From Candidatus Nanopelagicales bacterium (GTDB lineage: Bacteria > Actinomycetota > Actinomycetes > S36-B12), in assembly GCA_017854795.1 (NCBI GenBank), contig JAFMHB010000024.1, positions 1-32,977 on the forward strand: a stretch of 32,977 bases of DNA, given 5' to 3'. The position numbers and the translations under genes are program-made. This document shows, piece by piece, positions 6,963 to 10,413 of the stretch (position 1 is the stretch's first letter; each line of letters starts with the position of its first letter). The notes beneath the pieces are model-generated. The model was given only the letters and a program-made list of their open reading frames with translations. It did no database searches and was not told the DNA's origin.

Positions 6963-7037
6963 GTCTCAATAGTGACATGTCGGCTCCGGAGAATGTGACC
7001 TCGATCCTTTATTCGTGAGTGAACCAACACATTGCAC

Positions 7038-7043
7038 TAGTCT
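7038..7043 (+). promoter_or_regulatory. -10 element, leaderless upp
   Basis: TAGTCT ends 7 nt before ATG 7051 and no Shine-Dalgarno precedes that ATG. This supports a leaderless transcript and decides the start against the in-frame GTG at 7015. Confidence 0.55.
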
Positions 7044-7050
7044 TGCCCGC

Positions 7051-7689
7051 ATGCACACTCTTGTTATTGACCATCCACTCGTTGCCCACAAGATGTCGCG
7101 ACTGCGCCGTGAAGAGACTTCGTCGGCAACATTTCGTCTCCTGACCGAGGAACTGGTCACCCTGTTGGCCTATGAAGCAACACGTGGACTTGAAGTGGGT
7201 GAAGTGGCAATCACAACCCCCGTCAGCCCCACCACCGGCCGGGAAATGTCCCAGCCATTGCCATTGGTCGTACCCATCATGCGGGCCGGACTAGGCATGC
7301 TGAACGGAATGGTGCGCCTGATGCCGACAGCTGAAGTGGGTTTCCTTGGACTTGTGCGAGATGAAGAGTCCTTAACCGCATCAATTTACGCGGATCGACT
7401 GCCCGACGACATTCACAACCGTCAAGTCTTTGTCCTTGACCCAATGCTCGCCACCGGCGGAACCCTCATCGCTGCAATCGACATCCTGTTGGAACGCGGA
7501 GCAAAAGACGTTATTGCCATTTGTTTGCTCGCTGCACCCGAAGGCTTGGCCCGACTTGAGCAGGCGTACGGAGACAGAGCGGAGAATGTAACCCTCGTCA
7601 TTGCCGGACTCGACGAACGACTCAACGAAAAGGGCTATATCGTGCCCGGACTCGGTGACGCAGGAGACCGTCTCTACGGAACCGTGTAA
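7051..7689 (+). CDS. upp: Uracil phosphoribosyltransferase
   Basis: The enzyme salvages uracil: uracil + PRPP gives UMP + PPi. From ATG 7051 the protein has 212 residues, the normal length, starting [19 protein letters not shown]. Family landmarks are PIMRAGLGM, the PRPP loop DPMLATGGT, and the C-terminal uracil-binding [13 protein letters not shown]. It is divergent from the tadA operon. A conserved upp/tadA/tRNA-Ser/SRP RNA neighbourhood is familiar from other actinobacteria. Confidence 0.97.
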
Positions 7690-7776: not shown

Positions 7777-7782
7777 TAATCT
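7777..7782 (+). promoter_or_regulatory. -10 element of the DUF5993-dsbB operon
   Basis: TAATCT ends 6 nt before GTG 7789 (9 nt before ATG 7792), matching the leaderless spacing of neighbouring genes. Confidence 0.45.
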
Positions 7783-7788
7783 TGGTCC

Positions 7789-7941
7789 GTGATGCTCTCC
7801 ATGTTTGTTCTCTGGTTAATCGTCTTTGCGGGGATTGCCCGCAAATGGAAATGGACGCCTGGCTTGGCTGTTCTGACCCTCGTGTGGACCCTCGTGATTC
7901 TGCGGTTGCATATGACCGACCCGATCCCGCTGAACTTCTAG
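7789..7941 (+). CDS. Small DUF5993-like membrane protein
   Basis: This 50-codon ORF encodes (V/M)MLSMFVLWLIVFAGIAR, KWKWTPGLAVLTLVWTLVI and LRLHMTDPIPLNF: two membrane segments and a polar ...DPIPLNF tail. That is the pattern of DUF5993, a family of about 50 residues with a (T)D.L.L.F end found next to DsbB-like genes. It lies 24 bp before the DsbB-like gene on the same strand. The start may be GTG 7789 (leaderless position) or ATG 7792. The function is unknown; a partner or assembly subunit of the DsbB homologue is inference. Confidence 0.72.
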   Translation: MMLSMFVLWLIVFAGIARKWKWTPGLAVLTLVWTLVILRLHMTDPIPLNF

Positions 7942-7965
7942 CCAGAAATGCCACGAGGAGTCGTC

Positions 7966-8676
7966 ATGTCAGATACACAATTACTTTCCGATAAACAAAC
8001 ACTTACGGTCGCCCGACTGATCAACATTGCAGCCTTATTCGCGCTCCTCGGTGTGCTAGCCGGCTCACTGAACCTTCAGTTCGGTGCGGGCGAGTTGCCG
8101 TGTCCACTGTGTCTCGTTCAGCGTTCGGCAATGATCGGCCTTGCTGTTGGCCCCGCCATGAACCTGCTGTGGGGCATGAAGGCTCGCCATTACGCCTTGA
8201 GCATCTTGGCAGCTCTCGTTGGCGGGGCGGGGAGTGCCCGCCAGATTTTATTGCACATTGCTACACCCGGTGATCCTGGATTTGGGCCGGCCATCCTTGG
8301 CTTCCACCTCTACACGTGGGCGTTTATCACGTTCGTCATTGCCGTTGCCGGTTGCGCCGTGTTGCTTATGTGGAATCGACCATTTGATCTTGGTGACACG
8401 GGAGTCTTGGGCAAGCGCCATTGGCATCGGTCATTGACCCTTTTCATCACGATCTGGGGTCTGATGTGGCTCTTGGTTGATCTTCTCGTTATTGGGATCT
8501 CAGTCATTCCGCAATGTGGGCTCGGGTTGTGCCCTGATGATCCGCCTCCGGGTGCCGATCTCGGCGACGTTGTTGGTTGGGCCCTCGTTCTCGGGCTTGG
8601 AGCCGTAGCCGCGGTTATCGCCTACTTCGTGGAGCGTCGAATGGGTGACACTCCCGAGCGAGTGAACGCGAGCTAA
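7966..8676 (+). CDS. DsbB-like disulfide bond formation membrane protein
   Basis: The 236-residue protein has a first membrane helix followed by PCPLCLVQR (Cys46, Cys49), the quinone-proximal CxxC of DsbB. Two or three more helices follow, then an extracytoplasmic CGLGLC pair near the C-terminus and a last helix. DsbB re-oxidises a periplasmic thiol oxidase using quinones. The protein is longer than E. coli DsbB (176) and the second Cys pair is placed differently, so its partner may differ. The start ATG 7966 has GAGGAG 5 nt upstream; the ATG at 7948 is rejected. It is co-directional with the small DUF5993-like gene. Confidence 0.88.
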   Translation: MSDTQLLSDKQTLTVARLINIAALFALLGVLAGSLNLQFGAGELPCPLCLVQRSAMIGLAVGPAMNLLWGMKARHYALSILAALVGGAGSARQILLHIATPGDPGFGPAILGFHLYTWAFITFVIAVAGCAVLLMWNRPFDLGDTGVLGKRHWHRSLTLFITIWGLMWLLVDLLVIGISVIPQCGLGLCPDDPPPGADLGDVVGWALVLGLGAVAAVIAYFVERRMGDTPERVNAS

Positions 8677-8689
8677 CCACGCGATAAAG

Positions 8690-9463
8690 CTACTTGCGCA
8701 ATAAAGATGACAGATACAGGTCAAAGATTCCGGCGACCTCCCGCCCACCCTGTGTTTTCACTTCATAGACCGGTGCACCAAAACCTTCGGCTTGAGTCAC
8801 CGCAATACGCTCAGGCAGGAACGGCTTAAGAATTGTCGCCTTTCCATAAATACTTCCCAACTCGCCGACGCGGTATTGGTGTTCTTCAGCAACTGATCGC
8901 ACCCGATTCACCACGATCCCTGCAAGTTTTAGATCCGGATTGACCCCCTTGCGTATTTCTTCCACCTCTGCCACGGCCCGCTCAACTCCTTGAGTGCCAA
9001 AGTAGGAGGGTGTTGTAACGACAAGGGCAAGGTCGGATGCGGCTAACGCCTCGCGAGTGAGTGCGCCAAGTGATGGTGGGCAATCGATGAGTACCAGGTC
9101 GTAACCCTCAAGTTGCTGCAATGCTTTTGCTAACTTTGGTTTAAATACAGTTCCCGGGTGCGTCCAAGAATCGAATCGAATCACACTCGGGTGACTCGCT
9201 AACACGTCAACTTCACCGGGACCGATCTCCCAATCGCAGGGAGTTAACGCCGCCTCGATTTCGGCGCGAGTGGGGTGCTCGAGCACATTCGCCACCGTTG
9301 TCTTAGAGGGTCGGGCCCGCAAGATGGAAGTCGCATTCCCCTGCGGATCAAGATCGACCACCAGTGAGGTCAGGCCGCGGGCCATTGCCGCCCCCGCCAA
9401 ACCCAAAGTCACCGAGGTTTTACCGACTCCACCTTTGAGGCTCACAACGCTAATAACAGGCAT
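8690..9463 (-). CDS. ParA/MinD-family ATPase
   Basis: The 257-residue P-loop ATPase has a deviant Walker A, LKGGVGKTS (residues 9-17), a switch I region VVDLDPQGNAT and Walker B DLVLIDCPPSLG. These are marks of ParA-type ATPases that position DNA or protein cargo. No parB-like gene is adjacent and it is not next to an origin region, so it is an orphan. It may partition another cargo or assist cell-surface or septum assembly. It faces the septum-formation-like gene 114 bp away. It converges with dsbB, with a 13-bp gap. Confidence 0.9.
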   Translation of the reverse strand: MPVISVVSLKGGVGKTSVTLGLAGAAMARGLTSLVVDLDPQGNATSILRARPSKTTVANVLEHPTRAEIEAALTPCDWEIGPGEVDVLASHPSVIRFDSWTHPGTVFKPKLAKALQQLEGYDLVLIDCPPSLGALTREALAASDLALVVTTPSYFGTQGVERAVAEVEEIRKGVNPDLKLAGIVVNRVRSVAEEHQYRVGELGSIYGKATILKPFLPERIAVTQAEGFGAPVYEVKTQGGREVAGIFDLYLSSLLRK

Positions 9464-9576: not shown

Positions 9577-10413
9577 ATGCTTTTCGCTATGCCTTTCACC
9601 TTACCCAAATTCACCGCGGTAGCAGCCTGTATTGGCCTCTTCGCTGGAATCACCCTCATCGCAACTACCCTCCCCAGCGTTGGGGCGAATGAGACTGTGG
9701 CGGCCAAAGTAGGGGACTGCTTCAACTACAAAGCCAACGGAACGAAGGACCAGGCCGCGAGTGCACCTGTCGTTGACTGCACTGCTGCGCACACTGCCCA
9801 GACTTACTGGATTGGGACTCTGCCCGATAGTTACGGGCTTCCTGAGAAAGCTAAAGCAGCCAGTCGACTGAAACAGACTCAACCTTGCACGGTCAAAAAT
9901 ATCAATTCCTTCGTGAATCTTGTGGATCGGAAATTACCAACTCGATTGCAAAGTGTTTCGATTTTTCCGTCAAAGGCTCAATGGAACGATGGGCAGCGCT
10001 GGGTGCGCTGTGATGTTGTTTTTCGGGCAGGAAAGGCTTACAAGCCACTATCAACTCCCATCGCAGAGTTCGTAGCGGCAACTCCCGCAAGCCAATTGAA
10101 TTTCTGTACGCCGAGGGTCCCCGGAAATAGAACAACGAGCGCCTATCCGTGTACCAATGTCAAGAGAAACTGGATCATGATCCTTGAACGCAATCTGGGA
10201 ACAACCCCGACCAAGAGATTCCCAGGAACTCGAAGTGTGGAGTTTCAGACAAAGCGGATTTGCGAAAAAGCGGCCAAGCCCTACGTCACATTAAAGAAGT
10301 TCTATCCATGGTGGGCAATTTGGCCTACTTCAGCCGGATGGTCCCGCGGTGATAGAACTGCGCAGTGTTTCGTGCCTTACAGCGAATTTGTCAAAAACAC
10401 CGTCAGTCAATAA
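9577..10413 (+). CDS. Exported septum-formation-like protein
   Basis: The 278-residue protein has a signal peptide (hydrophobic core about 13-33) and then VAAKVGDCF, PVVDCTAAHTAQTYW, RWVRCDVVFRAG and a later repeat of the pattern (FCTPR, AYPCTNVKRNW, DRTAQCFVPY). The GDCF...V.C...H signature with paired cysteines fits the actinobacterial 'septum formation' domain family (PF13845-like), apparently in two copies. The function is not established. Its end overlaps the convergent NDH-2 gene by 11 bp. Confidence 0.7.
   Translation: MLFAMPFTLPKFTAVAACIGLFAGITLIATTLPSVGANETVAAKVGDCFNYKANGTKDQAASAPVVDCTAAHTAQTYWIGTLPDSYGLPEKAKAASRLKQTQPCTVKNINSFVNLVDRKLPTRLQSVSIFPSKAQWNDGQRWVRCDVVFRAGKAYKPLSTPIAEFVAATPASQLNFCTPRVPGNRTTSAYPCTNVKRNWIMILERNLGTTPTKRFPGTRSVEFQTKRICEKAAKPYVTLKKFYPWWAIWPTSAGWSRGDRTAQCFVPYSEFVKNTVSQ

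Follow-up and report, generated by a model that had tools for sequence, protein, structure and literature searches.

The window analysed here, a stretch of 32,977 nucleotides of actinobacterial DNA (G+C content 49-56% per kb), carries a 50-codon gene for a DUF5993-like membrane protein immediately followed by a gene for a DsbB-family protein, and these two genes form a near-obligate module (Table 1). What stands out here is a branch of DsbB which has a relocated second cysteine pair and a Dba-like partner, and which is found over several phyla. In our view, the two products probably make up one membrane thiol-oxidase unit, where the DUF5993-like protein would be a subunit or an assembly factor, and its partner a DsbB variant in which electrons would travel from a CX4C pair to the CPLC pair and from there to quinone; the binding of the two proteins, their topology, the electron path, the quinone and the substrate are what we infer within this explanation.

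Table 1. Position of the module, of its sequence elements and of the neighbouring genes in the window
Feature	Position	Strand	Remarks
Uracil phosphoribosyltransferase gene	7015-7689		5' neighbour of the small gene
TANNNT -10 element (TAATCT)	7777..7782	+	Six bases ahead of the GTG start
DUF5993-like small membrane protein gene, 50 aa	7789..7941	+	GTG 7789; next codon ATG 7792
Conserved tail HMTDPIPLNF	7909..7938	+	H-x-[TS]-[DS]-x-[LI]-x-[LI]-x-[FL]
Shine-Dalgarno-like GAGGAG of the DsbB gene	7955..7960	+	Read from sequence
DsbB-family membrane protein gene, 236 aa	7966..8676	+	PF02600; six predicted helices
CPLC redox pair (C46/C49)	8101..8112	+	In loop 1-2; next residues LVQR
CGLGLC second Cys pair (C184/C189)	8515..8532	+	After helix 5 and before helix 6; next residues PDDP
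Single ParA-type ATPase gene	8690-9463	-	Convergent with the DsbB gene
Gene for a protein with a Septum_form domain	9577-10413	+	PF13845, E 2.9e-17

The small protein aligned with the DUF5993 profile (PF19455) from end to end (residues 1-50 of 50, E 1.7e-5), the family having the same length. Its score of 25.3 bits is 1.7 bits short of the curated cut-off of 27, and it is therefore named DUF5993-like. Orthologues adjoining the same DsbB in the genus and family of the window scored 33.8 bits (G008) and 28.5 bits (G031). The first-pass annotation, which had proposed a DUF5993-like gene of 50 codons with a DPIPLNF tail and a profile search as a check, was right on these points: the search gave a match, though under the cut-off, and the protein does end in DPIPLNF. 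There was no match in NCBIfam, and the small protein alone gave a single partial match (E 3) against the plasmid collection. When compared with the nearest relatives, codon changes were mostly synonymous (synonymous versus non-synonymous: 5 versus 0 for L002, 14 versus 2 for both L003 and L004, 24 versus 4 for L005); they were about even for three more distant relatives, 66-70% identical (17 versus 15, 13 versus 15 and 15 versus 17). Third codon positions were the most often changed in all seven comparisons. One of the alternative frames had 3-6 stops in all seven, and the other had a single stop in five and was free of stops in the remaining two. The 50-codon gene is thus real and kept as a protein. 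As to the surroundings, a ParA-type-like neighbour is also present in L002, L003, L006 and L009.

A leaderless promoter had also been proposed for the small gene, and no Shine-Dalgarno sequence was seen in the bases upstream of it in the window. A TANNNT element occupies -15 to -17 relative to the ATG in 22 of the 24 actinobacterial loci aligned there (L067-L090), against a mean of 0.46 and a maximum of 4 when the upstream sequences were shuffled; eight of these loci appear shared with the contig set of window relatives, i.e. the locus sets overlap. The double start, a start codon immediately preceding the ATG, is present in 24 out of 24. When 78 loci were considered, all 22 with TANNNT within -18 to -12 were actinobacterial, and none was found among the others; a Shine-Dalgarno-like stretch was present in 27 of the 78, with starts picked mechanically. 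This pattern supports the existence of a conserved leaderless promoter in the actinobacterial loci. For the DsbB gene, the likely start is ATG 7966, given the GAGGAG located 5' of it, rather than 7948; this leaves 24 bases between the two genes.

The DsbB-family protein was above the cut-off of PF02600 (40.5 bits versus 22.1, E 4.5e-10), with an alignment restricted to the first half of the profile (positions 2-84 of 148). Its best NCBIfam match was the Campylobacter DsbI model, NF050065 (E 1.2e-9, 37 bits for a cut-off of 800). Among the relatives considered (the best 80 of 568 loci), 79 have the CXXC-x2-[QE]R motif. The loop joining helices 3 and 4 is devoid of cysteine in the window protein; those outside CPLC are C130, inside helix 4, and C184/C189, after helix 5. 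In the same best 80 of 568, the second pair was CX4C in 78 and CX3C in one, and the remaining contig ends before the site; its usual form is CGxxxC[PA]D[DN]P. The pair had been placed near the C-terminus by the first-pass annotation: it is indeed displaced from loop 3-4, but it lies between helices 5 and 6 and is not strictly C-terminal. What follows it in the window protein is one helix and a short tail, and in five proteobacterial relatives the protein ends shortly after it. [EQ]GxxxxLPDDP, without cysteines, stands at this site in eight loci belonging to other families within the window's order and in three further Actinomycetota loci with DUF5993 matches over the cut-off; the second pair is therefore dispensable for the pairing of the genes.

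For structure prediction, both window genes were read through as one artificial chain, which was modelled with 44 further aligned rows (22 paired, from 24 in-register pairs, and 22 with DsbB only). The model had a mean pLDDT of 85 and a pTM of 0.81; the small protein formed two helices and DsbB six, and the linker was disordered. The six predicted helices of membrane length depart from the four of canonical DsbB. Helices 1-4 superposed on E. coli DsbB 2zuq with a Z of 10.7 (rmsd 3.3, 120 aligned) and on DsbB 6wvf with a Z of 10.5, for 7.6 in the best unrelated row; a third DsbB structure, 2hi7, was only at 7.3, among the unrelated rows. Foldseek gave no match at E <= 0.001, the top one being DsbB 6wvf at E 0.25. 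As modelled, helices 1-4 are arranged like those of DsbB, a Z of about 10 in a helical bundle being sufficient only together with the sequence match. A single-sequence model of DsbB alone (pLDDT 53) was set aside.

The pairing with a DsbB homologue, already remarked upon in the window, was seen in both directions. In a DsbB-first search, which was not blind as it used an alignment of 12 DsbBs all already known to have the partner, the small gene was immediately upstream in 80 out of 80 (the best 80 of 568 loci). These 80 loci span at least five phyla (Actinomycetota, Pseudomonadota, Bacteroidota, Campylobacterota, Desulfarculaceae and one 'Deltaproteobacteria'). In the DUF5993-first direction, 16 of 398 Pseudomonadota genomes had a match (one of them being the chosen centre), and all 16 had this DsbB downstream; three of these matches (the chosen centre G057, G879:C77 and G681:C7) overlap the DsbB-first locus set. 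The nine Actinomycetota matches comprised the window, three others over the cut-off, all with this DsbB downstream, and five in frames of 511-633 aa, taken as chance. The co-occurrence suggested as a check was accordingly found in 19 of the 19 opened loci. The believable matches, 4 in 396 Actinomycetota genomes, are a lower bound because members of the window's own family score close to the model's cut-off or under it; the distribution of the pair is patchy. In 19 genomes, reached via loci already having the pair and hence not a blind sample (20 loci submitted, L103 left out), a DUF5993 match adjoined 20 of the 22 half-profile DsbBs versus none of the 16 full-profile, i.e. canonical, ones, and 20 of the 21 DUF5993 matches adjoined a DsbB. 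At 15 full-profile DsbB loci, no upstream ORF did better than E 0.11 with the DUF5993 profile. Both half-profile exceptions are preceded by divergent small ORFs, and in one case the protein encoded next is a 472-aa DsbI-like protein of Photobacterium (see below). An orphan DUF5993 copy, L179:819-1001 on the minus strand, has an altered end and no adjoining DsbB, and looks like a broken copy or a remnant.

Among the window relatives, 35 of the 44 DsbB matches were examined: the pair was present in 32 loci, and the other three, here called paralogue B, had no DUF5993 match. Two of the nine other matches, G026:C12 and G025:C313, have an adjoining DUF5993 match. The first-pass annotation had staked its proposal on a DUF5993 match and on a small ORF conserved next to dsbB in relatives, and both were found. 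The pair was also there in the six plasmid loci examined out of 22 records (three Pantoea, Vibrio, Pandoraea and Legionella); the Legionella and Vibrio records list no small gene, their gene table being incomplete, and nearly empty for Vibrio. A 5.3-kb stretch of Vibrio campbellii (L062) apparently contains two different DUF5993-DsbB pairs, with CGPFEC and CGPYQC. Concerning a possible third gene, no Pfam family (E <= 1e-5) was shared by more than 5 of the 61 same-strand neighbours scanned. Mechanical ORF calling had given 77 downstream neighbours, of which 29 were on the same strand and 27 were scanned, and 78 upstream ones, of which 44 were on the same strand and 34 were scanned. The commonest families, from the 25 of 58 listed, were AHSA1 (5), then UPRTase, PriA, DEAD, MOSC and some others (3 each).

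In the small protein, the tail is conserved: within the best 80 of 568 loci, the His was found in 80, the T in 70 and the D in 65. Among 137 pairs (122 distinct proteins), the His was at position -10 in 132, and one place off in three of the five exceptions. A tail of the same kind recurs across phyla. There is no conserved cysteine, 92 of the 137 proteins having none at all. The protein is a predicted helical hairpin (helices 2-17 and 22-40 in the model) whose central loop carries more positive charge than the tail in 130 of the 137 pairs. As positively charged loops face inside (positive-inside rule), both ends of the protein would be outside. A coupling analysis of 136 of the 137 pairs (L028 left out, Meff 89.8) gave best inter-protein z values of 6.7 and 6.3, while eight shuffled pairings (unweighted) reached at most 3.7, shuffling being a control that also removes shared ancestry. 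The top coupled inter-protein pairs are topologically sensible, and shared ancestry could also raise them.

The closest described system is the Dba-DsbI pair of Campylobacter, so that the gene arrangement is not wholly new. According to PMC3167755, dba of C. jejuni is 11 bp upstream of dsbI and translationally coupled to it; halting dba translation abolishes DsbI, dsbI is made without dba when expressed from its own promoter, and in E. coli the absence of Dba leads to degradation of DsbI. For Dba, the authors suggest a role as periplasmic or transmembrane chaperone. DsbI is described as having five helices, a CXXC, no second pair and a C-terminal beta-propeller (PMC4460558, PMC4152235). Of 121 Campylobacterota genomes, 52 contain a match to the DsbI model (27 of them score over the cut-off, and some matches are partial), and a Dba-like ORF was directly upstream in the 30 DsbI loci fetched (the best 30). 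The window pair shares several features with it: a small predicted inner-membrane protein is encoded directly upstream of a DsbB-like enzyme which has the CXXC but lacks a cysteine pair between helices 3 and 4. Dba is also like DUF5993 in its length, its hairpin and its gene place, and H/R-x-[TS] is retained in the tails of Dba-type proteins. The sequence likeness between Dba and DUF5993 is suggestive only. One of five scanned Dba-type proteins matched DUF5993, at E 0.0014 and under the cut-off; the mean was 10.1 bits for Dba versus 1.2 for class-preserving shuffles and 7.1 for reversed Dba, one reversed Dba (18.0 bits) beat the best real one (16.1), and the hhalign probability was 24.9%. From their position and their partner, it is nevertheless likely that Dba and DUF5993 share descent.

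Readings other than ours have to be weighed against these data. According to a first one, the window pair is simply the actinobacterial Dba-DsbI system, already described. The gene order is the same, the best NCBIfam match is DsbI and a quick tree, built from 72 rows, places DsbI on the same side as the DUF5993-type DsbBs: 57 rows (DUF5993-type, paralogue and DsbI) stand opposite 15 canonical DsbBs with an SH-aLRT of 97, a support possibly flattered by long branches meeting at the split (row L178, without the core, was left out). The window protein has the first five helices, as predicted, and the CXXC, and a sixth predicted helix follows. Yet it lacks the C-terminal beta-propeller described as defining DsbI (PMC4152235). 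It also has a CX4C after helix 5, where DsbI sequences read STGxxPYxGQGDP or similar. The missing propeller and the CX4C, together with the below-threshold match between Dba-type proteins and DUF5993, make this identity unlikely. A second reading sees the small ORF as a leader gene, the translation of which merely opens the dsbB ribosome site, its product having no lasting role. It would fit the 24-base interval, the coupling reported for dba and dsbI and the synthesis of DsbI without Dba from its own promoter (PMC3167755). It agrees poorly with a conserved amino-acid sequence in which changes versus the nearest relatives are mostly synonymous, with an invariant His in the best 80 of 568 loci and a tail type common to several phyla, with the GAGGAG that the window dsbB has of its own, and with the reported degradation of DsbI in the absence of Dba; we consider it quite unlikely.

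Outside Campylobacterota, a Dba-DsbI-like pair was seen in Photobacterium (L177:1171-2763, G073:C6), where a 58-aa small ORF is just upstream of the gene for the 472-aa DsbI-like protein. The same genome has two DUF5993-DsbB pairs and one canonical DsbB.

The thiol-oxidase unit that we favour could operate as follows. The DUF5993-like hairpin, with its positive loop inside and its two ends outside, would bind and stabilise DsbB, either as an assembly factor or as a permanent subunit, as Dba reportedly does for DsbI. Its His and [TS]-[DS] tail would be at the outer face, near the displaced Cys pair. A reduced DsbA-like protein would be reoxidised at the CX4C after helix 5, which would replace the missing helix 3-4 pair, and electrons would go from CX4C to CPLC and then to the membrane quinone. 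A bolder proposal, possible but rather doubtful, is that of a two-subunit quinone-linked thiol oxidase extending from actinobacteria to Bacteroidota. There the small protein would be catalytic, the His and [TS]-[DS] of its tail helping quinone binding or proton relay beside CX4C/CXXC, and DsbI-Dba would be a derived branch, devoid of CX4C and fused to a propeller.

Alternatively, the CX4C could be a metal site and not a redox relay, within a module for metal (copper) or thiol stress in which the His of the small protein would take part. An Erwinia amylovora DUF5993 gene figures in a table of strain-dependent copper-adaptation genes, alongside spy, with values of 3.35 / -0.64 and 4.83 / 0.23, pairs taken here as hypersensitive versus tolerant strain (PMC12542790). 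Moreover, the plasmid pair of Pantoea sp. JZ29 precedes, on the same strand, genes for phytochelatin synthase and gamma-glutamyltransferase (L066:2226-5276). However, the rise in Erwinia amylovora seems limited to one strain in that table, no metal-stress family appears among the 25 of 58 neighbour families listed, no family of any kind recurs in more than 5 of the 61 neighbours, and homology with DsbB favours a second redox pair. A metal site is thus very unlikely in our opinion, and the Erwinia transcriptome and the Pantoea cluster are hints of metal or thiol stress to be taken as leads only.

Canonical DsbB (E. coli, PF02600) has in common with the window type helices 1-4, the CXXC of loop 1-2 and the x2-[QE]R that follows. 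It differs from it by the position of the second pair, which is in loop 3-4 in canonical DsbB and follows helix 5 in the window type, and by the one or two extra helices and the small partner of the window type. The first-pass annotation spoke of a distinct system: this holds with respect to canonical DsbB, in view of the 0/16 versus 20/22 pairing and of the tree, but, given dba-dsbI, not in the sense of a wholly new one. CydX-type small subunits are tiny helical proteins encoded in the operon of a large quinone-linked membrane oxidase partner, and the DUF5993-like protein could by analogy be a similar companion of a larger enzyme. VKOR has the same presumed cellular role, that of a bacterial quinone-linked thiol oxidase. 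It belongs to a different family, its helices being related to those of DsbB by circular permutation (PMC4555120). A full-length VKOR and, on contig C22, one Thioredoxin_4-type DsbA candidate are encoded elsewhere in the genome, and the window DsbB is therefore probably a second, specialised oxidase.

In the literature searched, no paper joined DUF5993 to DsbB, and an earlier description of this branch is possible; the main text of the paper naming DUF5993 (PMC12542790) mentions neither dsbB nor disulfides. DUF5993 gains a clear partner and a testable role, as well as a link to the isolated Campylobacter Dba-DsbI observation, and a gene of fewer than 60 codons, easily overlooked by annotation, may be required by an oxidative-folding enzyme.

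A few variants of the module were also seen. In the annotated records seen, the DsbBs of this branch are named plainly 'disulfide bond formation protein B'. L023, L024 and L025 represent a third actinobacterial subtype, with CSHC and either CGPGIC or CGIGLC in DsbB, and with small proteins ending in VNWPW or VDWPW in place of DPIPLNF. Paralogue B was found in the window's family in L027 (G004:C48), L022 (G012:C17) and L021 (G024:C46). The small ORF located 5' of it codes for a hairpin without the His tail, and the DsbB of L027 has lost the CXXC (SSLG) and kept CGLTVC; judging from these sequences, paralogue B is perhaps a divergent, non-oxidising branch.
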